From IMG/VR virus record IMGVR_UViG_3300046557_000129, positions 1 to 46,276 of that record: a DNA stretch of 46,276 nucleotides, one strand, 5' to 3'. This DNA comes from a virus. This document shows positions 9,984-41,449 of this stretch, in pieces (the stretch's first letter is position 1; each line of letters opens with the position of its first letter). The notes under the pieces were generated by a model. The model was not told where the DNA came from, did not search any database, and saw only the letters and a list, made by a program, of their open reading frames with translations. The translations under genes and the position numbers were made by a program.

Positions 9984-9999
9984 TTGACCGGTGCGTCAA
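9984..9999 (-). promoter_or_regulatory. Operator copy 1, overlapping a leftward -35
   Basis: Minus strand TTGACGCACCGGTCAA. Taking TTGACG as a -35, a TAGATA -10 follows after 17 bases, with transcription starting near 9963, upstream of the ribosome-binding box of the 55-residue gene. It lies about 10 bases downstream of the polymerase stop codon. Confidence 0.65.
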
Positions 10000-10007
10000 G
10001 TGCCCAA

Positions 10008-12263
10008 TTATGCTTTTCTATACCGATAGCCGCGCCACCCACCGGACGCGCGTACGGGCCAATCATGAGCCCATGACGGCATGGTCCCCATGATCCGCTC
10101 GAACTCCTCAAGCGAGCCCCACCCAATCGGCACCTCGGCTACATCTTCATCATAGACATGGAGGATAATCGGATAGCCGGCCGCCTCGAGCGCCAAGATA
10201 CCGAACCGCTGAATATCGTGGGCGACGGCCTGAACAATATTTTCCGCAATACGTCCGGAATATGTCTTCATCGGACCCCATCCTGGCGGCCCATATTTGG
10301 CATTGGAATTCCAAGTCATATAGGTGATATCGAGAATGCCGGCGCGCGTCTCGTTTTGCCACAAGCGAGGGGAGTTATAGACCAGTTCCCGGCCGGATAA
10401 GAGCCGCACGATCAGCGCGTCCTTGCGCATGTAGAACTTGATCCCGTGGCTTTCGAATAGATGGCCGGGATATTGGATGGCGTTGACGAAAGCGCCTTCA
10501 AAACCGAACCGTTCGAGCGTCGGTCGCTTCTCGTAAATCGGATCTCTGGTTTGGCCGCCCCACATCTCGGGGATCTCGGGGGACGCGGCGCGCCATGCGA
10601 GGATGTTCCTCTTCACCTCATCATCCGTGAAGTTGTTCGTGCTATCGAATTGGCGCCACGCCGCAAGCCATCCTCCAAAACCTAGAGCGAGTTCCGCGAC
10701 TTTACCTATCTTCTGGCGATCGGGGTGATGGGTGCGACCATTGGCGGCGAAGTATTCAATATACCCTTCGTATGTCCGACCAGGGACGATCTTGGCCGCC
10801 GACACTAGATAGATGTCCTCCCGACGCTTGAACGTATCAATACGCCATTGGCAACCAGCCAGTTGCGCCGTAACCACGGCCTCAATGGCGCTGTAGTCCG
10901 ATGCCATTAGCTCCATACCCGGACCAGCCACGATCATCCCGCGCACGCACCCCGAAATAGATAAGAGCGCATCACCGAGGAAATGTTCTACGACCGGGAG
11001 CGACCGAGTGGCCATCACCTCTTGAACCGCGTCCACCGGATTGGTGTGCTCGAGATGGTCCGGGGTGTTTGGCCATTTGTATTTCTTGAGCAATGGATGC
11101 ATTGGCGTTGCACACCATGGGCATACCGTGGGCGGCCATTTGCTCGGCTTATCACATGCCTCGCAATAAACCAGATCCGGGCCAGCCTTAGGCAGGTTGA
11201 GCGGCTGCACGAGATCGCCCGTGGGGCGGCCGGTACGAGCGCCATGGTGGACAATGATGTCCCGCACGCGGTCATCACTCGCGGCTGTGCGATCGATCGA
11301 ATAGAGCTTCTTAACCGAGGCCGAACCGATGAGCCCGCGTATCTCGAGCACGCGCCTTGCTTCGGGCGGTAGATTATTCCGCGTGAGCGCCTCGGTAATC
11401 GCCTCTTCGTCCAGGGCGTCCATGAACACGCCTTTGGCCCGCAGCCATCCTTGTGTAGCCTGCACCTGCGTGGGATTGAGCCCGCCAGTGATAATGCGAA
11501 ACTCATCACCATATTGGAGGAGCGCTCGGTCGAGCACGGCGGTCATGTTGCGCACGCTTGCTCGGTCTACCGCGATGCCGCGCCAGTTCATTTCCTGGTC
11601 GAGTTGCCAGAATTCAAGCTCGGCCGCCGTCATCGGCATAATCTGGTTTGATTTGTCGATCTCCGTCCGCACGTCACCAGCGCAATAAGCATACAGCTTC
11701 GGCCCGTCGATCGGATCGGTTGCCGGATCAAGCCAGATATTTGGTTGCTTGGCGGTAGGTTTTTGTGGGATCGAGAATTTGTTGATCAGCCGCCGACCGT
11801 CTTCGTCCTTCTCCTCTGTTCCCGGAAGTACTTTACTCAGATCGCCAAGAGCGCCGGGAAGATTGTTCACACGAGCCTTAGCCATGCTGCAACGGAATTG
11901 TTTTGCTGGGATTGGCGGCCACCCATGCTTGCGCACCATGACAAGATGCCAGATCGCCCGCTCAAACATGGCCTTGTGGCATTCCACGAGACCACCGGTG
12001 GCTATCCAATCAAATAGACGTTGCGGCGGCGGATCACCGGGATGCCATCCACTCGGCTGGTTATCGCCGGGAAGAGAGTAATAGAGGCAAAGGACATCCG
12101 TGCTCGGGTGCTCGGCATAGACATACGTGCCGACTGCGGAGATACCCTTTTTCTTCTCCGCGCCAGGCGGCCCGATCCAAGTATTCTTTTCGCCGTTCCA
12201 GTGAAAACCTGCGGCACTTCGGGTTTCAAAATCCATGGTCGCATGCTGTTCAATCAGCCACAT
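10008..12263 (-). CDS. DNA polymerase, family A, with 3'-5' exonuclease and zinc-ribbon insert
   Basis: A 751-residue replicative polymerase. The N-terminus has a DnaQ-type exonuclease: DFET near residue 11 and an Asp in YCAGDVRTE near 197. Polymerase motifs follow: motif A ASDYSAIEA near 453, motif B KVAELALGFGG near 520, motif C HVYDEDVAE near the C-terminus. Between exonuclease and palm a four-Cys cluster (YCEACDKP ... VCPWCATP, about 366-386) looks like a zinc ribbon. I chose ATG 12263; the in-frame TTG at 12275 abuts the AAAGG site with no spacing. A terminator hairpin lies just upstream, so expression probably depends on read-through from the SSB gene. Confidence 0.92.
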   Translation of the reverse strand: MWLIEQHATMDFETRSAAGFHWNGEKNTWIGPPGAEKKKGISAVGTYVYAEHPSTDVLCLYYSLPGDNQPSGWHPGDPPPQRLFDWIATGGLVECHKAMFERAIWHLVMVRKHGWPPIPAKQFRCSMAKARVNNLPGALGDLSKVLPGTEEKDEDGRRLINKFSIPQKPTAKQPNIWLDPATDPIDGPKLYAYCAGDVRTEIDKSNQIMPMTAAELEFWQLDQEMNWRGIAVDRASVRNMTAVLDRALLQYGDEFRIITGGLNPTQVQATQGWLRAKGVFMDALDEEAITEALTRNNLPPEARRVLEIRGLIGSASVKKLYSIDRTAASDDRVRDIIVHHGARTGRPTGDLVQPLNLPKAGPDLVYCEACDKPSKWPPTVCPWCATPMHPLLKKYKWPNTPDHLEHTNPVDAVQEVMATRSLPVVEHFLGDALLSISGCVRGMIVAGPGMELMASDYSAIEAVVTAQLAGCQWRIDTFKRREDIYLVSAAKIVPGRTYEGYIEYFAANGRTHHPDRQKIGKVAELALGFGGWLAAWRQFDSTNNFTDDEVKRNILAWRAASPEIPEMWGGQTRDPIYEKRPTLERFGFEGAFVNAIQYPGHLFESHGIKFYMRKDALIVRLLSGRELVYNSPRLWQNETRAGILDITYMTWNSNAKYGPPGWGPMKTYSGRIAENIVQAVAHDIQRFGILALEAAGYPIILHVYDEDVAEVPIGWGSLEEFERIMGTMPSWAHDWPVRASGGWRGYRYRKA

Positions 12264-12285
12264 ATCCGGTGCCAACCTTTCTAAA

Positions 12286-12325
12286 TAAAACGGCCCTCGG
12301 TTGCAGATACGATAAACCGAGGGCC
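12286..12325 (-). terminator. Terminator/attenuator between SSB and polymerase genes
   Basis: An 11-bp perfect stem (GGCCCTCGGTT at 12292-12302 with its complement at 12315-12325) and a 12-nt loop. On the minus strand it is followed by GTTTTATTT. The polymerase ribosome-binding site (AAAGG) begins right after the T-run. I see no promoter between it and the polymerase gene, so it probably lowers polymerase expression relative to SSB. Confidence 0.88.
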
Positions 12326-12355
12326 TAAATCATAGGTTATGTGGGTTCCTTATGA

Positions 12356-13558
12356 CTATGCGTTTGGGGCCATCATTCCATGTTGGATCATCTGCTCATC
12401 TGTCCAACCACCGGCCTTGAGTTGATCGTATGTGGCGTTCTGAGCGGCCGGTAACATACGGAACGCGCTATACGGCGGGGGTGGCGGGCTAGAAGGGGAT
12501 GGCGTCGCAGGCGCCCCGGTGGAGACAGATGGGATAGGAACACTTGGCGGCGGCGGGGGCGCGGCAGGTGACGGGGGGACCGGGGGAGCGACCACCGACG
12601 CCGTCATGTATCCGCCCGCAATCAGCGCCTCATCCGTCCAACCAGCCGCAATGAACTGGTCCCGCGTCATGCCGCCGGCAAGGGCGGTCATGGTGGGGCC
12701 AGATGCAACGGGTGGGGGAGGGGGCGCCACAGCGGCTACCGGGGGAGGCGGGGGAGCAGCCGCCCGTGTGGCGTGACCGGCGGCGATCATCTGGTCATCC
12801 GACCAACCGGCCGCCTTGTATGCCGCGTAATCGGCGCCGTTCAGCATCGTGAGTGTGCCCGTAGAGGGCGTTGGGCCGGACGCAGCAGCGCCACCCATGA
12901 CATCCGAAGCGCTCGGGCCGCTGCGGATCTCTTCGCCAGCATGTTCGATGACCACGAACTTAGGGTTCAGGTAGAGACCAGGGCGCTGTTCATTCTCATT
13001 GTCCGATACCTGAGCACCGACGCGGACATAGTAACCCGTCTTGAGGAGCGAATGACGCGCTTTGTCCATGTCCACACGGAAGTTCGGTGCGCCGCCGATC
13101 TTGCCGGCTTCGTAGACTTCCGGTGCGGATGGCTGGCTGAACTTGATGATCCAGTGACCGGCATGGCCCTGCTTGCCGCTATTCGGTTTGCTGTTGCCGT
13201 CGTAGCCATCGCCGTCCTGCACCTTGAGGGCAAACTGCGGATGGATGCAGCCGAAGAGTTTGGCCACGTCCTGGACAAGTGATGGCGGGAAGTTAGCCGG
13301 CGGGGCTTTGACACCTTGCGGCCAATTCGCCGGCTTCGCCTTGGCGGCGATCGCCGCAAGCTTCATCAGATAGGGGATAGCTTCCGGATCGTTCTTGGCG
13401 ATCGCGCAGGTCAGGATGAACGCCTGTGTGGGTTGACCGGCATTCGGGCCGGTCTTGACGGTCATGGGGTTGCCCTGCATGTCCGTGGTCGAGGGATTGA
13501 ATGCGTCCCCCTGTACCAATCGCATCTTCGGCGACGGGAAAGTTTCAGATATTGCCAT
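12356..13558 (-). CDS. ssDNA-binding protein, DUF2815-like, with three C-terminal motif repeats
   Basis: A 400-residue protein. Residues 1-205 match the DUF2815 type of phage ssDNA-binding protein (OB fold; conserved FILTCAIAKNDPEA and GLYLNPKFVVIEHAG stretches). The rest is unusual: long Pro/Ala linkers (PPPPP runs) carry three copies of a short helical motif of the form Y..Q..AGWTDE.MI..G.M at about 242-265, 297-320 and 376-399, the last at the C-terminus. A fourth copy lies inside the helicase encoded at 15726. SSB tails often bind other replication proteins, so these may be docking peptides. It has the conserved ribosome-binding box and an operator/promoter inside the upstream gene. Confidence 0.8.
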   Translation of the reverse strand: MAISETFPSPKMRLVQGDAFNPSTTDMQGNPMTVKTGPNAGQPTQAFILTCAIAKNDPEAIPYLMKLAAIAAKAKPANWPQGVKAPPANFPPSLVQDVAKLFGCIHPQFALKVQDGDGYDGNSKPNSGKQGHAGHWIIKFSQPSAPEVYEAGKIGGAPNFRVDMDKARHSLLKTGYYVRVGAQVSDNENEQRPGLYLNPKFVVIEHAGEEIRSGPSASDVMGGAAASGPTPSTGTLTMLNGADYAAYKAAGWSDDQMIAAGHATRAAAPPPPPVAAVAPPPPPVASGPTMTALAGGMTRDQFIAAGWTDEALIAGGYMTASVVAPPVPPSPAAPPPPPSVPIPSVSTGAPATPSPSSPPPPPYSAFRMLPAAQNATYDQLKAGGWTDEQMIQHGMMAPNA

Positions 13559-13560
13559 AT

Positions 13561-13571
13561 TGCCAACTCCT
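13561..13571 (-). promoter_or_regulatory. Conserved ribosome-binding box AGGAGTTGGCA (SSB gene)
   Basis: An exact copy of the 11-mer, ending two bases before the SSB start codon. Its first bases overlap the stop codon of the upstream nuclease gene. Confidence 0.8.
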
Positions 13572-14703
13572 ATTTGAACACCTTAGCGGCGCGGTTGTCA
13601 TCAACACTTACAATCTTGAATTCCCCCGACCGTCTATCGGAGTAGGCCGATATGACCTCTGCGTCAAGTCCTAACTTCCGGGCTTGGGCGGGGGTAATTG
13701 CAGCGGGTTTGCGCAGCTCTTTGCCAAACATATCGCCCAGGATATAGACTTCTTCCAAAGGCCGTGACCAGAATTCGCGGCCTTCTCCTTGCTTCCGATC
13801 GGCGAACGGAACTGCTTTACCGGCGCGGATGAATGCATCGATCTGAGCATCCAATCCGGATTGCAGCGCCTCAAGCCGGGCGATCGCATCCGTAACATGT
13901 TTACGCATCAACCCGGCTCGTAAGGGGGTTAGTTCCTGCGGTGCACCCTTGCGAGATAGATCGATCGCGACGCCGCCGACCGCCAGCAATGCCGGACAAT
14001 CGTATCGTGCCGGGCAATGGTCGCAATGATCCCCCGTGTGGTATGGCGCATCGGGATCATTGGTCTTGCGTGCGGCATGGGCGAGCCCGTCCGCTAACTC
14101 CAAGAAACGGGCGCCGGAGCAAGGCCAGATTTTGCGCGGTCCCTCGGGATGATAACAACGCGGCTGGAATATGCCGGCGTTGACAGTCCATTCGGCCCAT
14201 ACCGTATCCGGGATAGCAAAATGTCGGAACAGACCGACGACATAATCCACGAGTTGCAAGTTCTCCCACGCATCGACGTACCCGTGACCGAATTTATAAT
14301 CCCGCACATAAAGCGTCTTACTCGTGAAATCGGCGCCACCGATATCCGCCGTTCCCCAATTGAGTGTAGGATGGATCGAGGGCATATAGACGCGTTCTTC
14401 TACCACGAACCGGTGGCCGCATGCGGGGCGCCATGTTGCGACATCTTCGAGCAGGTCTTGCGCCCCATCCACCATCTCTTGCGTGATAGGGTGGCCGTTC
14501 GTGGCGATATCTCCTAATCCCAGGACGGCGAACTTGCCGAGATGGGAGGCGAGATAATCGTGGGCGGCGGTTCCCTCCCGCGCTTCTGGTCGTTCTTCGT
14601 CTTCCGGATATAGCACCGCCATGCGGGGGTATGCGGGACACCCATCGGGCGCCCCCCAGATATCCGCCGCCGATGGGGCAAGGAATGCGTGGTCGCCGCT
14701 CAT
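13570..14703 (-). CDS. PD-(D/E)XK nuclease, DUF2800/Cas4-like
   Basis: A 377-residue protein of the DUF2800 type, related to Cas4/RecB-like exonucleases. Visible features: an N-terminal SAADIW..CPAYPR and EGTAAHDYLA segment, the catalytic core GTADIGGADF followed by VRDYKFGHG (the D-x-K of PD-(D/E)XK), and a C-terminal DHCDHCPARYDCPAL cluster that could hold an Fe-S centre or zinc. It probably processes DNA ends in replication or recombination. It overlaps the upstream gene by ATGA. A promoter/operator for SSB sits in its last 100 bases. Confidence 0.85.
   Translation of the reverse strand: MSGDHAFLAPSAADIWGAPDGCPAYPRMAVLYPEDEERPEAREGTAAHDYLASHLGKFAVLGLGDIATNGHPITQEMVDGAQDLLEDVATWRPACGHRFVVEERVYMPSIHPTLNWGTADIGGADFTSKTLYVRDYKFGHGYVDAWENLQLVDYVVGLFRHFAIPDTVWAEWTVNAGIFQPRCYHPEGPRKIWPCSGARFLELADGLAHAARKTNDPDAPYHTGDHCDHCPARYDCPALLAVGGVAIDLSRKGAPQELTPLRAGLMRKHVTDAIARLEALQSGLDAQIDAFIRAGKAVPFADRKQGEGREFWSRPLEEVYILGDMFGKELRKPAAITPAQARKLGLDAEVISAYSDRRSGEFKIVSVDDNRAAKVFK
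13652..13667 (-). promoter_or_regulatory. Operator copy 2, inside the nuclease gene, ahead of SSB
   Basis: Minus strand TTGACGCAGAGGTCAT. With TTGACG as -35, a weak TACTCC -10 follows after 17 bases, giving a start about 70 bases before the SSB ATG. It is the only clear copy well inside a coding sequence, and the following bases (GGTCATATC) match copy 3. Confidence 0.55.
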
Positions 14704-15483: not shown

Positions 15484-15513
15484 TTGACTGGCTTTGGTGT
15501 AATCGGATATGAC
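15484..15513 (+). promoter_or_regulatory. Rightward promoter facing the helicase operon
   Basis: TTGACT (15484-15489) and TATGAC (15508-15513) with an 18-base spacer, or ATATGA with 17. The -10 is the left half of operator copy 3. It would start transcripts about 30 bases before the 59-residue gene. Confidence 0.45.
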
Positions 15514-15524
15514 CGTAGCGTCAA
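15509..15524 (-). promoter_or_regulatory. Operator copy 3, between divergent early operons
   Basis: Minus strand TTGACGCTACGGTCAT. It serves as the -35 of a leftward promoter (TACACC after 17 bases) while overlapping the -10 of the rightward one. A protein bound here could control both early operons at once. Confidence 0.65.
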
Positions 15525-17564: not shown

Positions 17565-18308
17565 ATGAAAACCGTTCCCGATGGATACTGGACGTACGAA
17601 CGGTGCCTTGCCGAAGCATTAAAATACGAGACGCGTCGCGACTTTCGCGCGGGGAGTTCTGCATATTTTAGAGCAAGTGAAAAAAGGTGGCTACGGGAAA
17701 TATGCCGCCACATGAAACGGCTTGGGGGCGCATCGCATCGGTTCGTATATTTGGTCACAGATCACGCACATCAAACAGTATACGTGGGTCTAACGAGCGA
17801 CCCGAAACGCCGCGAGCGGGATCATCGGTACACTGGACCTTGCGCCATGTTGTTTCGCAACGGGGCGAAAATGACTGTGTTTTCCGAGCTACTCCCATCC
17901 AACGAAGCGGCCGAACTCGAAATCCAAACCGTGAGTTTATTTCGAGCCGAGGGGTTCTTTGTCCTAAACAAGATGCGTGGGGGCGGCCTAGGTGGGAAGC
18001 CAATTTGGACTATCGAGAAATGTACTTCCGAAGCTTCCAAATATGCGACACGGACGGAGTTCGCCAAGGGATCAAGCGGAGCGTATACCGCAGCATGGGT
18101 AAACTCATGGCTCGATAGAGTTTGTGTTCATATGCCGAAACGCAAGCGTCGCCGGCTGGTGAAATGGGATAAGCCTAAAATATATGCGGAAGCCGCGAAG
18201 TATCGATCTCGTACTGACTTCGCACATGGATCTAGCGGAGCATATCAATGTGCCTGGAAACAGGGATGGCTTGATTTAGCATGCCTGCATATGAAGCCGC
18301 TAAGATAG
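17565..18308 (+). CDS. GIY-YIG homing-type endonuclease with three flanking repeats
   Basis: A 247-residue protein. The catalytic domain (about 62-150) shows FVYLVT, TVYVGLTSDPKRRERDH, an AAELEIQ glutamate and FVLNKM, matching the GIY..YIG, Arg, Glu and Asn positions. One repeat precedes it and two follow: each reads as EA.KY..R..F..GSS.AY..A...WL...C.HM (about 11-50, 150-186, 205-243). Such repeats are common in phage homing endonucleases and probably read DNA. It begins at the base after the helicase stop and is less GC-rich, fitting a mobile insertion. Confidence 0.8.
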   Translation: MKTVPDGYWTYERCLAEALKYETRRDFRAGSSAYFRASEKRWLREICRHMKRLGGASHRFVYLVTDHAHQTVYVGLTSDPKRRERDHRYTGPCAMLFRNGAKMTVFSELLPSNEAAELEIQTVSLFRAEGFFVLNKMRGGGLGGKPIWTIEKCTSEASKYATRTEFAKGSSGAYTAAWVNSWLDRVCVHMPKRKRRRLVKWDKPKIYAEAAKYRSRTDFAHGSSGAYQCAWKQGWLDLACLHMKPLR

Positions 18309-18311
18309 TTG

Positions 18312-18343
18312 TTGACGACGGTACGACTTGACGCTATGGTCAA
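18312..18343 (+). promoter_or_regulatory. Promoter with operator copy 4 over the -10
   Basis: -35 TTGACG (18312-18317), 17-base spacer, -10 TATGGT (18335-18340). The -10 lies inside TTGACGCTATGGTCAA (18328-18343). If the palindrome itself were the -35, the start would fall after the ribosome-binding box, so the upstream -35 is the better reading. It drives the small-gene operon from 18370. Confidence 0.7.
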
Positions 18344-22055: not shown

Positions 22056-22249
22056 GCATCGATCAGCGGGCCGGGCTCAAACCCCCGTCACACGCCCTAT
22101 TGCGTCGCGTATCCGCTTCTCCCGTCTATTATCTCGGGCTCACGAGCGCGGACAAGAAGAGAGCACAAGGATTGATAGCGCGCGGACTAATCGAGATCCG
22201 GGACTATTATGCATATGTGACCGCCGTGGGCGCGGGTGTGTTGACTTAA
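22052..22249 (+). CDS. Small winged-helix-like protein (65 aa)
   Basis: A 65-residue protein from GTG 22052, which overlaps the previous stop. The pattern HALLRRV ... LTSADKKRAQGLIARGLIEIRDYYAYVTAVG resembles a winged helix (recognition helix, then a beta wing). It could bind DNA or pack against another protein. It is the last gene before the promoter of the TetR-like gene. Confidence 0.55.
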   Translation: MSIDQRAGLKPPSHALLRRVSASPVYYLGLTSADKKRAQGLIARGLIEIRDYYAYVTAVGAGVLT

Positions 22250-22269
22250 CTTGACGCAGCGGTCATATT
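22241..22269 (+). promoter_or_regulatory. Promoter with operator copy 5, ahead of the TetR-like gene
   Basis: -35 TTGACT (22241-22246), 17-base spacer, -10 CATATT (22264-22269). The operator TTGACGCAGCGGTCAT (22251-22266) covers the spacer and the start of the -10. Transcription would start near 22276, before the GAGGG site. Confidence 0.65.
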
Positions 22270-22294: not shown

Positions 22295-22597
22295 ATGAGT
22301 GTTAAAATAGAAAATCTAAGCGGTGTAGTGCTGCAAGCGGCGATCGCATGCGCGCGGGAAGACGGCTATCAATGGATCACCCGCAAGACGGTTGCCCAAC
22401 GCGCGGGTGTCTCGCTCGGTAGTGTCAGCAACGCCTATGTCACCATGCGCGATCTGAAACGCGCGGTGCTGCAATACGCCGTGGACAACAGTCTGGTTGA
22501 TATCGTGGCGCAGGGACTGGCGGATCGACATCCGATTGCCGGCGCCGCGCCCCCGGAATTGAAGAGTGAAGCCGCCCGTCTTATCATGACGGTGTAG
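22295..22597 (+). CDS. Short TetR-N-like DNA-binding protein; candidate operator-binding regulator
   Basis: A 100-residue protein. Residues 8-60 match a TetR-type N-terminal helix-turn-helix: VLQAAIACAREDGYQWITRK, then VAQRAGVSLGSVSNAYVTMRDL. Only about 40 residues follow, too few for the usual ligand-binding domain. TetR proteins bind palindromes of about 15 bp, and one operator copy covers this gene's own promoter, so it is the best candidate for the factor reading the dispersed sites; that is an inference. The stop is one base before the primase start. Confidence 0.7.
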   Translation: MSVKIENLSGVVLQAAIACAREDGYQWITRKTVAQRAGVSLGSVSNAYVTMRDLKRAVLQYAVDNSLVDIVAQGLADRHPIAGAAPPELKSEAARLIMTV

Positions 22598-22598: not shown

Positions 22599-25031
22599 AT
22601 GCTCCCATCAGCGTTGGCGCCCTTGGCCTCGTGGCCACAATTCGTCGTTTGGCGACTAGAAAATAGACCGGGAAGCGAAAAACCTACTAAGGTTCCGTAC
22701 TCCCCGGTCCACGGCAGAAAAGCCTCCTCCACCAATCCCGCCGATTGGGGAACATATGAACAGGCGATCGCTTTTCAAGCCCGCGAACCGGTCAATGGCG
22801 TCGGCTTCGTCTTCACCGCTCTAGATCCCTTCTTCTTCCTTGATATCGACGGCGCGCTCGTTAACGGCGCGTGGTCACAGCTTGCCCAAGAGATGTGCGC
22901 CCGCCTATCTGGCGCGGCCGTTGAAGTCTCCCAATCCGGCGCAGGTCTCCACATCATCGGCTCCGGTGCGGTTCCTCCTGAACACGCCAACCGCAACATA
23001 CCGTTGGGCCTCGAGTTCTACACCAAGGAGCGGTTCGTCGCGCTTACCGGTTCGCATGCCTCTGGTAGTGTCTCGGCTGATGTATCGGCCGCATTGCCGG
23101 GCGTAGTCTCGCAATTCTTCTCGCGCGCTACCGCTGGCGTCTCAACCGAGTGGACAACCGCACCCGTGCCGGAATGGAATGGGTATGCCGATGACGGCGA
23201 ACTCCTCGAGCGAGCGCTCGCCAGCGGTAAGAACAACGCCGCATCGGTCATGGGCGGCGCGGGCGATCCAACCTTTGCCGATCTGTTCACCGCCAATACC
23301 GACGTGCTTGCGCGTAAATGGCCGCCGAACCCCAATAGCTCCGATCGCTTCGACCATAGCTCAGTTGACCAAGCGTTTGCCAACTCGCTGGCCTTCTGGA
23401 CCGGCAAAGACTGCGAACGGATGGAACGCATCATGCGTCTGTCCGCACTCGCCCGCGCCAAGTGGGATATTCGGGAGACCTATCTCCAGGACACCATCCT
23501 GAATGCCACTGCCTGGACACAACAGGTCTACGTGAAGAAGGAGGATCGGCCGGTCATACCGTTGCCGCCACCCCCGCTTGATGAAGAGGTAGAGGCGGCC
23601 GGGTTCTCTCCGCGTCCCGGTGACGAGTTCATGCTTTCGGGGAAGCAACTCGATCATTTCGCCGGCTGTATCTATGTCGTGGCGCCGAACAAGGTGCTTA
23701 TTCCCGGCGGCGACATACTAGATCAAGCTCGGTTCGATGTAATCTATGGCGGTCACGACTTCGTCATAAGCCGAAATGGTAAGAAGGTAGTCAGCAGCGC
23801 GTTCGAAGCCTTCGCCAAGAACCAGAATTTCACGGCTTCCCGCGCTGACCGGCTTTGCTTCCGCCCGGAATATGGTGCCGGGGGCATCATCGTGGACGGT
23901 GGCAAACGGTTGGCCAATACGTACTATCCGGCCGAGACGGAAGAGACTGAGGGTGACCCAAGCCCGATGATCAATCATATCCATAAGATGCTACCGATCG
24001 GCCATGACGCGGAGCTCCTCCTCACCTATATGGCCAGCGTCAAGCAAAATCCCGGTATGAAAGCGCAATGGTGGCCGATCGTGCAGGGGGCGGAAGGGAA
24101 TTTCAAATCTTTCCTGCTCAAGATTATGGCATTCGCGGTGGGCTCCCACTATAGCCACATGCCTAACATGGAGAAGATGGTCAACGGAAAATCCAACTTC
24201 AATGGCTGGATAGACCGTAAGCTCTTCCTCGGCTTGGATGAGGTATACGCGACGCATCGGCGGGAGTTCTTCGAGGGCTTCAAGACCACTGTGACCAATC
24301 TCTCCCTGCCGATCGAAGGCAAGGGGATCGAGGAAGTGACTGGGGACAATCGCGCCAACGGGTTTATCGTGACCAACTGGCAGGATGGTGTCCCGATCAC
24401 CGGCAAGAACCGTCGATACGCCGCATTCTTCTGCGCTCAACAGACGCCCGAAGATATGGTCCGGGATGGGATGGACGCCGAATATATCCGCAATCTCAAG
24501 GATTGGTTGCTCGGTAGTGGCATCTATGCTGCCTACGGACCCAACTACGGGATGCGCGTGATGAACTGGCACCTTGCCCGCAAGGTACTCGTGGCCGAAC
24601 TGGATCCGGCCCAGCTCGCCATCCGTTGCCCGGATACGAGCTCTACTCAAGCTGCGATAGTCGCCGGCCGTGGCCGCGTGGAACAGGAAGTGCAAGAGGC
24701 GATCGAGGAGGAACGGCCGGGCTTCGCGGGGGGATGGGTATCCAGTATTTACCTGGACAAGCTCATGCGCGATTGTCGCCACAACGTGGCCTTTGCTAAG
24801 CGCCGCGAAATGATGCTGACCCTCGGCTATGATTACCATCCTGCTCTGCACGAGGGTCGCGTCAACAACCCCGTGACGCCGGACGGGGGAAAGCCCCGTA
24901 TTTATGTTCGGGTTGGTTCTATCCAAGCCCGTAATCTGACGGACGCCGCCAGTGTGGCCAAGGCGTATAGCGACGCCCAGACGCGTGCGGCGATCGAGAA
25001 AAGCGCGGCTGGACAAGTCATGTCGAAATGA
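22599..25031 (+). CDS. Primase-polymerase/SF3 helicase, NrS-1 polymerase-like
   Basis: An 810-residue replication protein. The N-terminus resembles archaeo-eukaryotic-type primase-polymerases such as that of phage NrS-1: FFFLDIDGAL (DxD at about 82-84), EVSQSGAGLHIIG (about 109-121) and LEFYTKERFVALTG (about 138-151). The C-terminal half has an SF3-type ATPase: GAEGNFKS Walker A (about 497-504), LFLGLDEV Walker B (about 540-547) and a TNW..G..ITGKNRRYA sensor region. One protein may thus prime and unwind at the origin, beside a separate family A polymerase. The C-terminus is basic/helical. Confidence 0.85.
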   Translation: MLPSALAPLASWPQFVVWRLENRPGSEKPTKVPYSPVHGRKASSTNPADWGTYEQAIAFQAREPVNGVGFVFTALDPFFFLDIDGALVNGAWSQLAQEMCARLSGAAVEVSQSGAGLHIIGSGAVPPEHANRNIPLGLEFYTKERFVALTGSHASGSVSADVSAALPGVVSQFFSRATAGVSTEWTTAPVPEWNGYADDGELLERALASGKNNAASVMGGAGDPTFADLFTANTDVLARKWPPNPNSSDRFDHSSVDQAFANSLAFWTGKDCERMERIMRLSALARAKWDIRETYLQDTILNATAWTQQVYVKKEDRPVIPLPPPPLDEEVEAAGFSPRPGDEFMLSGKQLDHFAGCIYVVAPNKVLIPGGDILDQARFDVIYGGHDFVISRNGKKVVSSAFEAFAKNQNFTASRADRLCFRPEYGAGGIIVDGGKRLANTYYPAETEETEGDPSPMINHIHKMLPIGHDAELLLTYMASVKQNPGMKAQWWPIVQGAEGNFKSFLLKIMAFAVGSHYSHMPNMEKMVNGKSNFNGWIDRKLFLGLDEVYATHRREFFEGFKTTVTNLSLPIEGKGIEEVTGDNRANGFIVTNWQDGVPITGKNRRYAAFFCAQQTPEDMVRDGMDAEYIRNLKDWLLGSGIYAAYGPNYGMRVMNWHLARKVLVAELDPAQLAIRCPDTSSTQAAIVAGRGRVEQEVQEAIEEERPGFAGGWVSSIYLDKLMRDCRHNVAFAKRREMMLTLGYDYHPALHEGRVNNPVTPDGGKPRIYVRVGSIQARNLTDAASVAKAYSDAQTRAAIEKSAAGQVMSK

Positions 25032-25222: not shown

Positions 25223-25250
25223 TTGACCATGGCGTCAATCAGAGTAGTAT
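25223..25250 (+). promoter_or_regulatory. Late promoter candidate with operator copy 6
   Basis: -35 TTGACC (25223-25228), 16-base spacer, -10 TAGTAT (25245-25250). The operator TTGACCATGGCGTCAA (25223-25238) covers the -35; on the minus strand it reads TTGACGCCATGGTCAA. The expected start is near 25257, ahead of the endolysin and packaging genes. Confidence 0.65.
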
Positions 25251-25405: not shown

Positions 25406-26065
25406 ATGGACAGAGCAAAACTATTCACCAGCCTGCGCCCCATCATCGGTAAGCTATCCCAGACACAGGTTGATGGAGTAGGGGCGATCCTGGACGCATG
25501 TGACGAGGAGGGAGTGACTGACCTACGTCACATCGCCTACCTGCTCGCTACACCGATGATCGAGACTGAGAAGAGCACCTATCTGCCTGGCGTGGAGAGC
25601 CTGAACTATTCCAGTGCCTCCCTGACGGCCAAGTTCCCGTCACGCATCACCGCCACGCAGGCGGTCCAATATGGCCGCACGACGCAGCACCCGGCCGATC
25701 AGAAGGCTATTGGCAACATCATCTACGGCGGTCCGTGGGGCAAGGCCAATCTCGGCAATACCGAGGTCGGGGATGGCTTTCTCTATCGCGGGCGTGGGTT
25801 GGTCCAGATCACCGGGCGGCGGCTCTATACGCTCTTCGGCTTCGCGATTAATCCGGACGGTGCCTGTGACCTCGAGGCGGCCGCCGATATCATGGTGCGC
25901 GGTATGCGCGACGGGTTATTCACGGGGAAGAAGTTGTCCGATTACCTGAGTGGGGCAATGCCGGACTGGCGTAATGCCCGGCGCATCGTCAATGGTGTGG
26001 ATCGTGCTGACGATATCGCCGGGTATGCGGTCAAGATCTACGGTGCGTTGAAGGCGGCCGTCTAG
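25406..26065 (+). CDS. Endolysin, glycoside hydrolase family 19-like
   Basis: A 219-residue protein of the GH19 chitinase-like endolysin type that cuts peptidoglycan glycan strands. Visible family features: HIAYLLATPMIETEKST with the candidate acidic residue (about 44-60), and the signature DGFLYRGRGLVQITGRRLY (about 125-145). There is no signal peptide or membrane anchor, so release depends on a holin encoded elsewhere (candidate at 6262). GGAGATAAGAGA precedes the ATG. Its stop shares the CTAG at 26062-26065 with the convergent gene. Confidence 0.88.
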   Translation: MDRAKLFTSLRPIIGKLSQTQVDGVGAILDACDEEGVTDLRHIAYLLATPMIETEKSTYLPGVESLNYSSASLTAKFPSRITATQAVQYGRTTQHPADQKAIGNIIYGGPWGKANLGNTEVGDGFLYRGRGLVQITGRRLYTLFGFAINPDGACDLEAAADIMVRGMRDGLFTGKKLSDYLSGAMPDWRNARRIVNGVDRADDIAGYAVKIYGALKAAV

Positions 26066-26553
26066 AGCCCCATATCGCGCTTGAGTTGGCGGTACGCCGC
26101 CCACTCTTTTTCATATCTTTCTTTAATCCCTGCGGACATTTCCCGAAGAATTAACTGTAGACGCTCTTTCTCCGATTGATCCTCAATAATACGGGGGCGC
26201 CCTACCGGCCGCACAGCCTCTCGCGGGAGCATCTCATGGAGACGAAGGCGCGTCCCTTCCGGATCTCGAAATTTCTGGTCCTCCATAACAAATTCCAGAG
26301 TGTCCAATGAATATTGGGCCAAGCGTTTCCAACTCGCCATATTTATAAGTTGATCCGCGTTGGATGCCTTAGTTGCCACGAGGTCGCGATAGTCATCGTT
26401 ATAATTTATATGACCATCTATAATTATAAAAACCCCCTGACAGATGGCTTTAGATAGTTCGATATTATCTTTTATAATTCCTTTTAAATTTATAGGATTT
26501 CTCCATGTTTTTGAACCAGCCCAATCTCGGTATACATTCAGCGCTACGCCCAT
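26062..26553 (-). CDS. Leftward orphan gene with AT-hook-like motif
   Basis: A 163-residue protein, the only leftward gene in the late half. Its 5' part is AT-rich. The N-terminal half is mixed (VYRDWAGSKTWRNP, IICQ-like hydrophobic core GVFIIIDGHINYN); near residue 115 is RPVGRPRII, resembling an AT-hook, followed by a charged helical C-terminus (EKERLQLILREMSAGIKERYE). No family recognised. GGGAG lies six bases before the ATG. It reads away from an AT-rich inverted repeat that it might bind. Unlike base composition suggests recent acquisition. Confidence 0.65.
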   Translation of the reverse strand: MGVALNVYRDWAGSKTWRNPINLKGIIKDNIELSKAICQGVFIIIDGHINYNDDYRDLVATKASNADQLINMASWKRLAQYSLDTLEFVMEDQKFRDPEGTRLRLHEMLPREAVRPVGRPRIIEDQSEKERLQLILREMSAGIKERYEKEWAAYRQLKRDMGL

Positions 26554-26618
26554 TTCAGTCTCCCTTTACCCCGGTGTGGCAACCCCAAAGCCGGAGCATA
26601 TTTGTTAATTAATACATA

Positions 26619-26646
26619 TGGTTAGAAGATTTACCCCGTCTAACCA
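26619..26646. repeat. 8-bp inverted repeat in the AT-rich zone
   Basis: TGGTTAGA (26619-26626) and TCTAACCA (26639-26646) with a 12-nt centre. No T-run follows on either strand. It lies between the leftward orphan gene and the 16-bp inverted repeat and could be part of the same control or packaging region. Confidence 0.6.
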
Positions 26647-26673
26647 CGACGGTTTCAATCCGTAGTCCAAAAT

Positions 26674-26729
26674 CATAAACGTAAATAATATTAATGTATA
26701 CCCTCTTTAGATAATTATTTACGTTTATG
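26674..26729. repeat. 16-bp perfect AT-rich inverted repeat
   Basis: CATAAACGTAAATAAT (26674-26689) and its exact complement (26714-26729) are separated by 24 bases. It lies about 140 bases before the small terminase gene, where cos, pac or origin sites are often found. Most of the window has no such AT-rich stretch. Confidence 0.8.
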
Positions 26730-26758
26730 TGTGCGCTGTGCGGATAGCGTGTTTGTTA

Positions 26759-26853
26759 GGGGTATTGGGGGTATAGAGTAGTAATAATATAATAAAAACA
26801 ATAGGATAGAATAATACCCCAGAGAGAAAGAGATAGGGGGTATATCGGGGTAT
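26759..26853. repeat. GGGGTAT repeats (four direct, one inverted)
   Basis: Direct copies start at 26759, 26768, 26837 and 26847; an inverted copy (ATACCCC) is at 26814-26820. The direct copies come in two pairs spaced 9 and 10 bp, about one helical turn. They flank a promoter just upstream of the small terminase gene and may bind TerS or a regulator. Confidence 0.7.
26765..26793 (+). promoter_or_regulatory. Promoter for the small terminase gene
   Basis: -35 TTGGGG (26765-26770), 17-base spacer, -10 TATAAT (26788-26793, exact consensus). Transcription would start near 26800. The -35 lies between two GGGGTAT repeats, so a protein bound there would block it. Confidence 0.6.
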
Positions 26854-26865
26854 GTCAGGGTTAAC

Positions 26866-27669
26866 TTGCCAAGAGCGGCTAAGAGCGGTATCCCTGTGGA
26901 TATGAGCGAACCAGTAAAACAAATGCTTACACCCAAGGAAGAAGGTTTTTGCCAATCTTATATTTTAGAGGGCAAGAACAAGGCGGACGCGTATCGAGCG
27001 AATTATGATACGAGCCGGATGAAGGAACAGACCATCTGGACAGAATGCGTTAAATTATCGCGCGTTCCAAAGGTGGCCGCTAGGATCGATGAATTAGCAA
27101 AATCTTGGGAAGACGCGCTGCAAGGCAAGATCTCGATGACCGTGACAAAGCTCCTCGAAACATACATTTCGCTGTCCTTCGCGGACCCCAATGAGCTGAT
27201 ATCGGTGAAGGTTGGCTGCTGCCGATATTGCCATGGCGTCGGCGGTGGCTTCCAATGGCGGGAGCGAGAGTATCTGAAGGAATTGGTAAAGTGGGAAAAG
27301 GCGCCTTCGAGGCATGAGATGCCCGATATTGCAGGGGGTTTCGGGTTCCGTATGGGCACTCCCCCAAACCAAGATTGCGAGGAATGTCAGGGAGACGGCG
27401 TAGAGCGCGTTGTGCCGATGGATACGACGAAGCTCTCCCCCGGCGCCAAACTCCTCTACAGGGGCGCTCAGCGGACCAAGGAGGGCATTAAGATCTTGTT
27501 CGCCGACAAGGACAAAGCGCTCGATCAAATCGGCCGCATGCTAGGCGCGTTTGACGACAAGCTCCGCGTAAACCTAGACGGCAAGATCCAGAACCTCCAG
27601 CTCACAACGGACGATCCGGCTGAAGCATCGCGTATTTACCAAGCGATGCTTGACGGCAAAGCAGATTGA
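26866..27669 (+). CDS. Terminase small subunit, Terminase_2-like
   Basis: A 267-residue DNA-recognition subunit of the packaging motor. The N-terminal domain (LTPKEEGFCQSYILEGKNKADAYRANYD split here as LTPKEEGFCQSY and KADAYRANYD) is the helix-turn-helix part of the family. The middle has two CxxC motifs (CRYCHGVGG and CEECQGDG) that probably bind zinc. The C-terminus would oligomerise. The start is uncertain: TTG 26866 has AGGG five bases upstream; ATG 26902 (255 residues) has no clear site. Its stop lies inside operator copy 7. Confidence 0.85.
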   Translation: MPRAAKSGIPVDMSEPVKQMLTPKEEGFCQSYILEGKNKADAYRANYDTSRMKEQTIWTECVKLSRVPKVAARIDELAKSWEDALQGKISMTVTKLLETYISLSFADPNELISVKVGCCRYCHGVGGGFQWREREYLKELVKWEKAPSRHEMPDIAGGFGFRMGTPPNQDCEECQGDGVERVVPMDTTKLSPGAKLLYRGAQRTKEGIKILFADKDKALDQIGRMLGAFDDKLRVNLDGKIQNLQLTTDDPAEASRIYQAMLDGKAD

Positions 27670-27681
27670 CGCTACGGTCAA
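27650..27681 (+). promoter_or_regulatory. Promoter with operator copy 7 over the -10
   Basis: -35 TTGACG (27650-27655), 17-base spacer, -10 TACGGT (27673-27678), inside TTGACGCTACGGTCAA (27666-27681). The start would be near 27685, exactly at the foot of the hairpin that follows. It starts a cassette of four small genes inside the packaging region. Confidence 0.65.
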
Positions 27682-28881: not shown

Positions 28882-30507
28882 GTGACCGATAGCTTTAACT
28901 GGCAGTCCCCCGACTATATTCCTATCCTCAAAGCTCGCCTCGCTCGCCTGCAATGGCTTCGTTCCAATCCGGCCAATCTCCCCGCCGTGCGTACCTACTA
29001 CCGCGAAAACCCATGGGATTTCATCAATGATTGGGGCATGCTGTATGAGCCGCGTAATGCGGAGATTGGTCTGCCGAACGCTATCCCATTCATGCTGTTC
29101 CCCAAACAGATCGACTGGCTCAAATGGGTCGTGACGCAATGGAAAGCGCGTGACGGCGGCGTGACGGAGAAGAGCAGGGACTGCGGCGTATCGTGGCTAT
29201 CGGTCGCGCTAGGAGCCACTCTCAGCATGTTTTACCCTGGCCTGACGATCGGTTATGGCTCCCGCAAACAGGACTACGTCGATAAGCGCGGATCACCCAA
29301 GGCGCTATTCTGGAAGGCGCGGGAGTTCATCAAGCGCGTGCCACCGGAATTCACGGGCGGATGGGATGAGAGGGTCCACAGTATTGAGAACCTAATTCGC
29401 TTCCCTACCGGCTCCGTCATGACGGGCGAGGTGGGTGATGGCATTGGGCGCGGGGACCGAGCATCCATCTACTTCGTGGATGAGGCGGCCCACTTGGAGC
29501 GGCCCGAGATAGCCGACCAGGCGCTATCCGCCACAACCAACTGTCGCATCGATATCTCTTCGGCCAACGGCACGGACAATCCGTTCTATGCCAAGGTATC
29601 GGGCGGGAGGGTCAATAAGTTCACGTTTCACTGGCGGGATGATCCCCGCAAGGATCAAGCTTGGTATGACCGGGAAGTCTATCGCCTTGATCCTGTGACC
29701 GTCGCTCAAGAAATCGATATCAACTACAGCGCCAGCAAGACCGGTATCCTCATACCATCGGCCTGGATCAATGCGGCCGTCGATGCGGACAAGGTGCTCG
29801 GCTTCGAGGTGCGGGGGGCCAAGCGCGGCGCATTGGACGTTGCGGATGAGGGTATCGATCTGAATGCATTCTGCTCAGCCATGGGAGTACGCATAGACGA
29901 GGTGACCGCCTGGAGCGGCAAGGGTGACGACATCTTCGGGACTGTTCAACGCGCCTTCGAGCTATGCGATGAATGGGGTTTGGACGAATTTGATTATGAC
30001 GCCGATGGTCTGGGGGCCGGGGTGCGAGGCGACGCCCGCGTGGTTAACAGCGAGCGCCTGAAGAACAAGGTCCGACAGATCAAGGTCAATCCTTTCCGGG
30101 GATCGGGGGCGGTATTCCAGCCGGACAAGGCTATTCCCCAGGCGCTCCCGCGCGGTGAGCACGCCGACGCCAAGACCCGCAAGAACGCAGACTTCTTCGC
30201 CAACGCTAAAGCGCAAGGTTGGTGGAATTTGCGGGTGCGGTTCCAACGAACGTATAGGGCGGTCGAAGCGAAGAAGTCCGGTCAGCCAATCCTTTATGAT
30301 TTTGATGATTTGATCGTGCTCAATGGGCGCATGATTGAGCTCGCCAAAGTGATCCTAGAACTAAGCCAACCGACATACACACAGACGACGGCCGGTAAGA
30401 TCCTCGTGGACAAGGCGCCCAAGGGGACCAAGAGCCCCAACTACGGCGATAGTGTTATGATCCGCATGGCCCCGCGCCGCACCAGTTTCTTGAGCTACCT
30501 CGATTGA
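28882..30507 (+). CDS. Terminase large subunit
   Basis: A 541-residue packaging motor with ATPase and nuclease domains. The ATPase has a divergent Walker A-type stretch TEKSRDCGVSW (about 94-105) and Walker B IYFVDEAAHL (about 195-204). The nuclease shows ALDVADEG (about 316-323), a DADGLGAGV acidic segment (about 373-381) and a GDSVMI segment near the end. It starts with GTG; the upstream gene stops at 28881. Its TGA is inside the TTGACA -35 of the next promoter. Confidence 0.93.
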   Translation: MTDSFNWQSPDYIPILKARLARLQWLRSNPANLPAVRTYYRENPWDFINDWGMLYEPRNAEIGLPNAIPFMLFPKQIDWLKWVVTQWKARDGGVTEKSRDCGVSWLSVALGATLSMFYPGLTIGYGSRKQDYVDKRGSPKALFWKAREFIKRVPPEFTGGWDERVHSIENLIRFPTGSVMTGEVGDGIGRGDRASIYFVDEAAHLERPEIADQALSATTNCRIDISSANGTDNPFYAKVSGGRVNKFTFHWRDDPRKDQAWYDREVYRLDPVTVAQEIDINYSASKTGILIPSAWINAAVDADKVLGFEVRGAKRGALDVADEGIDLNAFCSAMGVRIDEVTAWSGKGDDIFGTVQRAFELCDEWGLDEFDYDADGLGAGVRGDARVVNSERLKNKVRQIKVNPFRGSGAVFQPDKAIPQALPRGEHADAKTRKNADFFANAKAQGWWNLRVRFQRTYRAVEAKKSGQPILYDFDDLIVLNGRMIELAKVILELSQPTYTQTTAGKILVDKAPKGTKSPNYGDSVMIRMAPRRTSFLSYLD

Positions 30508-30535
30508 CACCGGCGGCGTATGACGCTAGCGTCAA
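30504..30535 (+). promoter_or_regulatory. Promoter with operator copy 8 over the -10
   Basis: -35 TTGACA (30504-30509), 17-base spacer, -10 TAGCGT (30527-30532). The operator ATGACGCTAGCGTCAA (30520-30535) has a perfect 14-bp palindromic core TGACGCTAGCGTCA. It starts a second small-gene cassette, between TerL and portal. Confidence 0.7.
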
Positions 30536-30909: not shown

Positions 30910-31243
30910 ACCCACGCTCTTCTTCACCCTCGTCAAATGCTGGCACGTTGGCGGCTATGCGATCATGCGTGTCACCACGGAAAAGCCGCGACAACTTTAT
31001 GGTTCGGATATGGACGGTATGCCCACCCATTGCGCCCCTCGTAACACAGTTGGGCGCTTTGAAACCCAAGAAACCGCGCAAGCCAAGATCGACGGCGTTA
31101 TGCGGGTAAGAGCTCGATACGCCGGGCAGTTCAAATACCTTCGGGAAAAAGAACGTGCGCTCGAGGCAGAGCAGCGAGATGCGATTGACGCCCTGCTTAT
31201 GAGGTCAGAGGGGGATTACGCTAATGCACTATTATCGGTATGA
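30902..31243 (+). CDS. Hypothetical protein (113 aa)
   Basis: A 113-residue protein with a beta-rich N-terminus (TLFFTLVKCWHVGGYAIMRV) and a helical C-terminus (LREKERALEAEQRDAIDALL). Starts at ATG 30902, eight bases inside the previous gene. No family recognised. Confidence 0.65.
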   Translation: MSKPTLFFTLVKCWHVGGYAIMRVTTEKPRQLYGSDMDGMPTHCAPRNTVGRFETQETAQAKIDGVMRVRARYAGQFKYLREKERALEAEQRDAIDALLMRSEGDYANALLSV

Positions 31244-39448: not shown

Positions 39449-39460
39449 GAGCAACGGGAA

Positions 39461-40966
39461 ATGGCAATCAGCATTAAGAAATATGTCGACATCACATCTG
39501 GTGTCGGCGGGAGCGGAGCGGTCCGCCAGCGCGACCTAATCGGCCGTCTGTTCACGACCAATCCGAAGGTTCCGGCCGGCGCGGTGGTTGAGATCGAGAG
39601 TGCGGATGACGCGCTCCTCTATTTCGGTTCCTCCAGCGAAGAATACGCCCGCGCTGTCTTCTATTTCTCCTTCATCTCGAAACTGATCGTTGCCCCCCAA
39701 AAGCTCTCATATGCCCGTTGGGCGAATGCTGCCGATGTGCCCCGGATCTACGGTTCCAAGATCACTGCGACCCTCGCCTCTTTCGTGGCCATAGCCGCCG
39801 GCACACTGATGATCACCGCTGGCGCCAATACCGCCAACCTGACGGCTATGGACTTCACGGCGGCCACTAGTTTCGCCGATGTCGCGGCTATCGTACAGAC
39901 TGCCGTTCGTGCGGCTACTGGCACGCAGTTCGCAACCGCCCTAGTCACATACGATGCGATCGCGGGCGCGTTCAATTTCGCCGGCACGGTCGCTGAAACC
40001 GCCCCGGTCAGCGTGACCGTCACCGGCACGGCCAACGATATCGCCGGCAAGTTTGGATGGGGGACAACCGCCGTCTTCTCGCCTGGCGTCGATATCACAC
40101 CTTTGTCGGATACGCTCACCGCGTCCGCCGATCTGAACAACAACTTCGGTTCGTTCCTCTTCATCCCTACCTTGACCGATGACCAAGATATTGAAGTTGC
40201 CACTTGGAACGGCGCCCGCAATGTCGAATTTATGTACTGCGATCGTCTGAACGACACCAACATGGTGGCCCGCTCGGCCGCTTTGATCGGTGTGGCGGGA
40301 TGGGCCGGCACTTATGCGCCGACCACCGGCGAGTTCGATGAAATGTGCCCCATGATCATCATGGCGGCCACGGACTATACCAAACGCAATAGCGTTCAGA
40401 ACTACATGTTCCAGCAGTTCCCAACGCTCACCCCCAAAGTATCGACCACTGCGCAGTCCGATCAGCTCGACCCGCTCCGCGTCAACTATTACGGTGTGAC
40501 GCAGACAGCCGGCCAACAGATCGCATTCTATCAGCGCGGCGTACTTGGCGGGGGCTCTACTGCCCCCGTTGACATGAACACATACGCCAATGAGCTTTGG
40601 CTCAAGGACCGGGCCGCTTCTGACATCCTGTCGCTGCTTCTCTCTTTGGCGCGGATCTCCGCCAATGTTGAGGGTAACGGTCAGATCATCGGTATTGTCC
40701 AGCAGGGCGCTGTTGACCAAGGCCTTTTCAATGGCGTCATCAGCGTCGGCAAGACCCTGACGACCCAACAGAAGCTTTATATTGCGAGCATCACGGGCGA
40801 TGATCTGGCGTATAGCCAAATCCAGAATATCGGCTACTGGCTGACCTGCGAAATGCAGAGCTACGTGACCACGGATAGCCGCACGGAGTACAAAGCCGTC
40901 TACACCCTCGTTTATTCGAAGGATGACGATATCCGTAAGGTCGAAGGTACTCATATTCTCATCTAA
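39461..40966 (+). CDS. Tail sheath protein, DUF3383-like
   Basis: A 501-residue contractile sheath protein. Features: YVDITSGVGGSGAVRQRDL at the N-terminus, LYFGSSSEEYARAVFYFSF near 50, and the C-terminal sheath core with NGQIIGIVQQGAVDQGLFNGV (parts NGQIIGIVQQG, DQGLFNGV) and TEYKAVYTLVYSKDD. The sheath makes this a myovirus-type phage. It is directly followed by the tube gene. Confidence 0.88.
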   Translation: MAISIKKYVDITSGVGGSGAVRQRDLIGRLFTTNPKVPAGAVVEIESADDALLYFGSSSEEYARAVFYFSFISKLIVAPQKLSYARWANAADVPRIYGSKITATLASFVAIAAGTLMITAGANTANLTAMDFTAATSFADVAAIVQTAVRAATGTQFATALVTYDAIAGAFNFAGTVAETAPVSVTVTGTANDIAGKFGWGTTAVFSPGVDITPLSDTLTASADLNNNFGSFLFIPTLTDDQDIEVATWNGARNVEFMYCDRLNDTNMVARSAALIGVAGWAGTYAPTTGEFDEMCPMIIMAATDYTKRNSVQNYMFQQFPTLTPKVSTTAQSDQLDPLRVNYYGVTQTAGQQIAFYQRGVLGGGSTAPVDMNTYANELWLKDRAASDILSLLLSLARISANVEGNGQIIGIVQQGAVDQGLFNGVISVGKTLTTQQKLYIASITGDDLAYSQIQNIGYWLTCEMQSYVTTDSRTEYKAVYTLVYSKDDDIRKVEGTHILI

Positions 40967-40981
40967 CCGGGGGTCCCCGCA

Positions 40982-41425
40982 ATGCAAGACATTTCAGCAT
41001 TTGGCATTCGCGTACAGCTTTACGCATCTGTCACTTTCCCAGCGGGTATCACGCTTTCGCAGTTTTCGGACGACGCGGATAGCTTGGATCTCCCCTCGCA
41101 ACAGGTCAATGATAAGGCCATGGGCGTCAATGGCGATCTGGTCGTGTGGTCAAAGGCCAACCCTTTGAACCTCACGCTCAACATGATCCCCGCCACTCCC
41201 GACGACATCAATCTGTCGGTCCTGCTCGAAGCCAACCGCACATCACGCGGCAAGCGGTCGGCACAGGATAGCATCACTCTCGTGGCGCTCTATCCTGATG
41301 GCCGTTCGATCACCTGGAGCCCCGGCAAGATCACCGATGGTATCCCTGGCAACGCTCTCGCCAGCTCGGGCCGCATGAAATCGAAGCCGTATCAGTTTAC
41401 CTTCGAGAACCTCGCACGGGCTTGA
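40982..41425 (+). CDS. Tail tube protein, DUF3277-like
   Basis: A 147-residue tube subunit, the usual partner of DUF3383 sheaths. Features: [41 protein letters not shown] (parts [18 protein letters not shown]), then the [16 protein letters not shown] end. Its TGA overlaps operator copy 10. Confidence 0.85.
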
Positions 41426-41449
41426 CGCTACCGTCAGATAAGCTAGAGT
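41422..41449 (+). promoter_or_regulatory. Promoter with operator copy 9 (right half TCAG)
   Basis: TTGACGCTACCGTCAG (41422-41437) with TTGACG as -35 and TAGAGT (41444-41449) after 16 bases. The start would fall at the foot of a terminator hairpin, so the output may be low unless termination is blocked. Confidence 0.55.

Follow-up and report, generated by a model that had tools for sequence, protein, structure and literature searches.

Dispersed palindromic operators over core promoter elements suggest a phage-wide regulon of a half-size TetR-like protein in phages with no detectable integrase

Dispersed sites for a single phage repressor are already known in P1 and in the cluster A mycobacteriophages, and these phages are temperate or derived from temperate ones. 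In P1, which is temperate, the single repressor C1 acts on operators that are scattered over the genome, many of them at promoters; the operators are asymmetric, and C1 is not a TetR-type protein. In T4, dispersed middle-promoter elements near −30 are read by the small phage protein MotA, which activates promoters without a −35 element and needs AsiA. The cluster A mycobacteriophages (L5/Bxb1) use one repressor and many dispersed short stoperators, mostly oriented with transcription; among relatives, a change of repressor goes with a change in the consensus (PMC6550527). The stoperators are asymmetric 13-bp sites, lie mostly away from promoters, and block elongation (PMC6550527), and the repressor is monomeric (PMC9283540).

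The DNA analyzed here, called the window, is a whole viral record of 46,276 bases with a 127-base terminal repeat at its ends. It represents a contractile-tailed phage and has genes for DNA polymerase A, an SSB-like protein, exonuclease, helicase, primase, terminase, capsid, sheath, tube, and baseplate. Nine copies of a palindromic site are dispersed over the window. We propose, with a probability of about 0.8, that they are putative operators of one autoregulated, phage-encoded repressor, the half-size TetR-like protein encoded at 22295-22597, which would bind them and repress transcription.

As in L5/Bxb1, one phage protein would read dispersed short sites that mostly follow transcription and whose consensus shifts with the regulator, though here the binding is deduced from sequence. 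Unlike the asymmetric, off-promoter, elongation-blocking stoperators, the sites are 16-20-bp palindromes inside the core promoter, 17 bp from the −10 box and outside genes or at their ends, the protein is of the TetR type, and no integrase was found. P1 C1 resembles the proposed repressor in having genome-scattered operators, many at promoters, but here the operators are palindromic and the protein is TetR-type. The likeness to TetR/AcrR regulators (EilR, KstR, and TetR) lies in the fold and sequence of the helix-turn-helix (HTH), the palindromic operator over a promoter, and putative autoregulation. Unlike these regulators of ~200 residues, however, the window protein has 100 residues and lacks the ligand-binding/dimerisation domain, so that no inducer is evident, and it would control a whole virus genome, not a neighbouring operon. 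T4 MotA shares the dispersed phage promoter elements near −30 and the small phage protein as proposed reader, whereas the sites here contain a good −35 part; TTGAC is retained, with an outer T in 97% of the oriented sites, where the MotA box replaces the −35 element. We found no description in the open-access literature of a −35-merged palindrome with a half-size TetR protein in integrase-less phages.

The pattern TTGACGCnnnGGTCAW occurs in seven exact copies in the window, where ~0.003 are expected, and in two further variants. The exact matches to TTGACGCNNNGGTCAW are at 9984, 13652, 15509, and 25223 on the minus strand and at 18328, 22251, and 27666 on the plus strand, while the sites at 30520 and 41422 have one and two mismatches, respectively. 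All nine sites described in an earlier note on this DNA were found where it had placed them. With up to two mismatches allowed, the window holds 13 matches against 2.2 ± 1.6 in shuffles (shuffle maximum, 8); the additional ones at 31185, 31779, and 41563 look like chance matches. In a palindrome scan with no assumed motif, covering all 5-mer half-sites and spacers 0-14, TTGAC-N6-GTCAA is the best palindrome of the window genome, and its score exceeds that in every one of 60 first-order Markov genomes. The frequency scan proposed in the earlier note thus finds an excess over expectation and over shuffles. Alignment of the sites widens the symmetric core to ACTTGAC-N6-GTCAAGT (20 bp).

Eight of the nine sites lie at gene boundaries, in agreement with the earlier claim that all but one do so. 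On the minus strand, the candidate operator TTGACGCACCGGTCAA (9984..9999) is located at the polA stop, with a −10 sequence TAGATA 17 bp on, and would drive a small gene at 9776-9949(−); sites at the polA end are also found in the metagenomic relatives G005 and G002. The exception, TTGACGCAGAGGTCAT (13652..13667, −), is within the 3′ end of exo, ~94 bp before the SSB gene at 12356-13558(−). This position, the 3′ end of the gene before SSB, is kept in G011, MSW-3, and SppYZU01, and the site is therefore probably the promoter of the SSB gene and not a stray site. TTGACGCTACGGTCAT (15509..15524, −) is placed between the leftward exo operon and the helicase gene, and helicase-adjacent sites are also found in G002, G005, G011, JD001, and MSW-3.

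The remaining candidate operators would face rightward. TTGACGCTATGGTCAA (18328..18343, +) follows the helicase/GIY-YIG genes and has TTGACG upstream at 18312; sites after the helicase gene are also found in G001, G002, and G011. TTGACGCAGCGGTCAT (22251..22266, +) is located 29 bp before the TetR-like gene and is a candidate autoregulatory site, at which promoter scoring pairs an upstream TTGACT at 22241 with CATATT at the right edge of the operator. TTGACCATGGCGTCAA (25223..25238) follows the primase gene. Its motif match is on the minus strand, but its promoter reads in the plus direction (TTGACC-16-TAGTAT, with the −10 sequence 16 bp on) toward the endolysin gene at 25406-26065, which it would drive. 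TTGACGCTACGGTCAA (27666..27681, +) overlaps the TerS stop and would drive the genes before TerL, and TerS-end sites are shared by G001, G003, and G011. ATGACGCTAGCGTCAA (30520..30535, +), after TerL, has TTGACA upstream at 30504, and sites after TerL occur in G001, G002, G003, G005, and G011 as well. TTGACGCTACCGTCAG (41422..41437, +) overlaps the tail-tube stop, has a −10 sequence TAGAGT 16 bp on, and would drive the tail module; G001 and G011 also carry tail-tube-end sites.

The positions of the sites relative to the promoter elements should be noted. In the enterobacterial phages, TANNNT peaks 23 bases past the site start, that is, 17 bp past TTGACG, in 50 of 111 sites, against few at other offsets. 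The same peak is seen in the metagenomic loci, at offset 23 in 60 and at offset 24 in 28 of 390 oriented flanks, where half is the ceiling because each flank was counted in both orientations. This peak at a 17-bp spacing places the operator center near −27.5, covering the −35 box and the spacer. When sites are oriented by the −10 box, 97% have T as the outermost base toward the −35, whereas the base at the other end is relaxed (A, 44%), which accounts for the asymmetric consensus ending in A/T of the earlier note; since the pooled logo was oriented by means of the −10 match, its −10 columns are circular, but its offset-0 column is not. One half-site would thus serve both the polymerase and the regulator, and the other half the regulator only. 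In the window itself, TA is found 22 or 23 bases from the site start in seven of the nine sites, and promoter scoring gives weak predicted −10 boxes, while the MSW-3 sites rank among the strongest predicted sigma-70 promoters of that phage.

The earlier note had distinguished two promoter layouts, with the palindrome over either the −35 or the −10 box. The former is strongly supported by the 17-bp peak, while the latter is drawn from the window genome only: TTGAC is exactly 16 bp upstream of the sites at 18328, 27666, and 30520 and 10 bp upstream of 22251. An upstream TTGAC at 16 bp was not seen at the sites of relatives, and the over-the-−10 layout was rejected as a general one. At the four window sites 18328, 22251, 27666, and 30520 it is plausible, and at 18328 and 30520 this is because of a Shine-Dalgarno sequence close behind the site, within which transcription would begin under the −35 layout. 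Whichever layout applies, the promoter would be expected to be blocked by a bound dimer. Paired operators ~27-28 bp apart are found in MSW-3 (34326/34354) and upstream of the TetR-like genes in L313, L316, and L321, and TTGAC in the metagenomic loci has a peak at −27/−28. These pairs and this peak suggest back-to-back divergent promoters occupied by two dimers.

The gene proposed to encode the regulator (22295..22597, +; 100 aa; phrog_8723) encodes a TetR_N-type HTH protein and lies directly upstream of its conserved neighbour, the DNA primase gene (22599..25031, +). Almost every viral locus recovered with the primase alignment has a TetR-like gene ahead of primase. The Pfam domain TetR_N (PF00440) matches 54 of 55 family members (best E-value, 1.7e-11), and the window protein itself gives an E-value of 0.0013, below the gathering score. 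Its AF2 model has a pLDDT of 95.1. The top Foldseek matches in the PDB are nearly all TetR family proteins aligned over the DNA-binding part, with probabilities of 0.99-1.00 and TMq of ~0.5-0.6, but with weak E-values of ~0.01-0.06 (best, 0.0098). The family-wide Pfam matches are the main basis for the TetR assignment. The PDB matches, of ~170-215 aa, are covered only in part (TMt ~0.3), and the model ends after a short helical tail. With respect to the TetR/AcrR family, the protein therefore has the N-terminal TetR_N HTH and, putatively, a palindromic binding site overlapping its own promoter (41 of 79 genes; 22251 in the window), while the C-terminal ligand-binding and dimerisation domain is absent. 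Annotations call the gene hypothetical or a putative TetR protein, and we found neither a target of its product nor anything relevant on this regulator or motif in the open-access literature. Longer TetR-like genes with the helix motif LCERAGIPDGSF are located before primase in L263, L269, L281, L290, L294, L305, L315, and L322, and some of them still have an upstream operator.

A megablast comparison of cultured phages with 18 kb of window sequence found no match, and relatives were then sought by protein searches. The operator is retained in metagenomic relatives at 40-70% protein identity. In the scan with no assumed motif, either TTGAC-N6-GTCAA or TGACG-N4-CGTCA, which overlaps it, ranks first among palindromes in G000, in the metagenomic relatives G001, G003, G005, G010, and G011, and in the cultured phages JD001, MSW-3, PEi21, PEAT2, AAM22, LAPP1, KsaM-C1, and ZCEC13, among which are members of Jedunavirus, Yokohamavirus, and Peatvirus. 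The scan in relatives for which the earlier note had called therefore ranks this palindrome first in about a dozen diverged genomes. One-mismatch counts for the motif and a reversed-pattern control are 15 and 2 in JD001, 21 and 1 in PEAT2, 13 and 1 in ZCEC13, and 15 and 0 in G005. The sites are syntenic; they recur at the polA end, the exo/SSB junction, beside and after the helicase gene, before the TetR-like gene, after primase, and at the TerS, TerL, and tail-tube ends. They also avoid gene interiors, contrary to a motif that is equally common inside genes: of the intact sites, none of 11 in JD001 and one of 11 in MSW-3 is found well inside a coding sequence, a location that makes up 82% of the genome (binomial, 3e-9 and 4e-7). 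All four one-mismatch sites of JD001 with a broken core, on the other hand, are deep in genes, which matches chance. The carriers B2, CKB-S1, R9Y3, PLPE, and PY6 show no excess of TTGAC-N6-GTCAA, and the palindrome scan gave no clear TTGAC-type operator in B2, CKB-S1, PLPE, and R9Y3.

The motif is linked to the TetR-like gene. A scan of genome contigs with the window primase alone found no relative, and the alignment of all TetR-like proteins was too diverse as a query; a primase alignment was used instead and gave 105 loci (80 viral and 25 from genomes). A TetR-like gene is present in 85 of them, typically ending just before primase. In these 85 loci (1088 kb), TGAC-N6-GTCA has 206 copies, and each of the other spacers in the range 2-10 has 9-21. 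The 20 loci without the gene (332 kb) contain 10 copies, compared with 1-8 at other spacers; these 20 are mostly bacterial contigs, and the contrast is thus partly one between kinds of element. Within 250 bp upstream of the HTH domain, an operator is found for 41 of 79 distinct TetR-like genes, where 3.6 would be expected; most of these operators are at −74 to −124. The other 38 have no canonical operator just upstream. A search upstream of these genes for an alternative gave no convincing recurrent one beyond that of G002 and weak variants in L274 and L297, and a changed operator accounts for only some of the gaps, both among these genes and among the carriers that show no excess. The phage-wide regulon under one factor that the earlier note had considered the simplest reading is thus supported by sites that are in excess, outside genes, syntenic in relatives, and tracking a single gene.

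The operator may also change with the recognition helix. In the close relative G002 (polymerase, 67%), whose helix is divergent (GMSKASIFNCF), TTGAC-N6-GTCAA is absent, and TTGAAC-N4-GTTCAA takes its place at mostly syntenic positions (following polA, on both sides of the helicase gene, ahead of the TetR-like gene, and past TerL). L252/L254 (helix GVAKGG) have TGACC-N4-GGTCA, and Scuro (helix GVTHGTVLRYY) has TGACA-N4-TGTCA. These three to four cases, judged by eye, are suggestive of covariation.

The repressor reading draws on the motif excess, the synteny, the motif-gene linkage, the position over core promoter elements, and the TetR-type fold, and from these observations we infer direct binding, dimerisation, and repression by the TetR-like protein. 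A dimer would read ACTTGAC-N6-GTCAAGT, in which the TTGAC half would in most sites also be the −35 box of a host sigma-70 promoter, while in up to four window sites the palindrome would cover the −10 box instead. Since the operator overlies core promoter elements, the bound protein should exclude sigma-70 polymerase, and the early, replication, packaging, lysis, and tail operons as well as the protein's own gene would be repressed. Speculatively, its role is most likely to hold back transcription genome-wide by negative feedback, which might ease as replication increases the number of operators. Homotypic superinfection immunity may be a by-product or a second role, also speculatively. Late-gene expression with a repressor over nearly every operon is left unaccounted for, which counts against the repressor reading.

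The same protein might instead bind the sites and activate, switching on middle or late genes in the manner of T4 MotA. The sites are found before both early and late operons, the −10 boxes of the window are weak, MotA shows that an activator can bind at about −30, and some TetR-family proteins activate. MotA promoters, however, have no −35 element, whereas a near-consensus TTGACG at the optimal 17-bp spacing is kept here; the strength predicted for the MSW-3 promoters and a palindrome over the −35 box and spacer, which is a repressor position, also argue against activation, and we regard it as unlikely. It is also rather improbable that the sites are immunity operators of the P1 or L5 kind, in a temperate or plasmid-like phage with the TetR-like protein as lysogeny repressor. 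In favor of this reading, temperate phages such as those of cluster A typically have one repressor with dispersed operators (PMC6550527), and the contig is circularly permuted. A search aimed at integrase and resolvase, however, found neither tyrosine integrase (PF00589) nor resolvase (PF00239) genes in 14 phages of the group, and cultured Jedunavirus relatives are used as lytic phages. From the absence of these genes, and of the TetR-like gene from those chromosomal relatives of primase that were found, classical lysogeny is not supported, while plasmid-like maintenance is still conceivable.

Another factor, either a host regulator or a different phage protein, could read the palindrome, with the TetR-like gene merely a linked member of the regulon. 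The canonical upstream operator is missing from about half of the TetR-like genes, and direct binding by their products is putative. The motif, however, persists in phages whose hosts are far apart (Klebsiella, Edwardsiella, Pectobacterium, Acinetobacter, and others), varies along with the TetR-like protein's recognition helix, and is near background in primase loci without the gene, all of which makes a different reader quite improbable. The last reading takes the sites as only a conserved −35 box with an extended promoter, in which the right half-site would be incidental. It explains the left half, TTGAC, and the −10 box at 17 bp, but sigma-70 promoters do not carry GTCAA 6 bp after TTGAC. 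In the same loci, the 206 copies at spacer 6 against 9-21 at spacers 2-5 and 7-10 led us to reject this reading, which we consider virtually negligible.

The autoregulated repressor, if correct, bears on a group of phages of 42-50 kb (Jedunavirus, Yokohamavirus, Peatvirus, and many metagenomic relatives) whose regulation appears undescribed. Phages of the genus Jedunavirus are under study for phage therapy against Klebsiella. A proposed regulator, its operator, and the target operons can now be named. Expression of one 100-aa protein should then silence an incoming phage, which would be surprising with no detectable integrase. The divergent operators of the relatives (TTGACG, TTGACC, TTGACA, and TTGAAC) provide a ready set for how a minimal TetR protein reads DNA. 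A broader generalization is tentative, and we hold it to be doubtful as a whole: in a large group of virulent phages, from alphaproteobacterial-like metagenomic ones to the Klebsiella Jedunavirus, most transcription units might be under a −35-fused, half-size TetR protein that acts as a copy-number-linked feedback or titration timer and gives homotypic immunity without lysogeny.

Several other sequence features should be mentioned. The intergenic region upstream of TerS faces a leftward or divergent small gene in the window (26553-26866), JD001 (22924-23335), and MSW-3 (42339-42746). None of the three regions contains the operator, and in the window, where the region is AT-rich, predicted promoters are no commoner than in shuffles. 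That this region holds operator-free, immediate-early promoters outside the regulon is only a suggestion. A different palindrome, TTCGC-N3-GCGAA, is present in six to nine copies within ~14 kb in L273, L276, L278, L279, and L293, and is perhaps a terminator or another repeat. The GIY-YIG domain protein (17565-18308) sits between helicase and the operator at 18328 and may be a homing endonuclease inserted in the operon. The sequence AGGAGTTGGCA has six exact copies in the window (0.02 expected), at 9944(−), 13561(−), and 18356, 27786, 30548, and 41489 (+). They directly precede the ATGs of the first gene in six putatively operator-controlled units, and G011 also holds three copies; a predicted ribosome-binding leader with AGGAGTTGGCA is thus shared and accompanies the operators.
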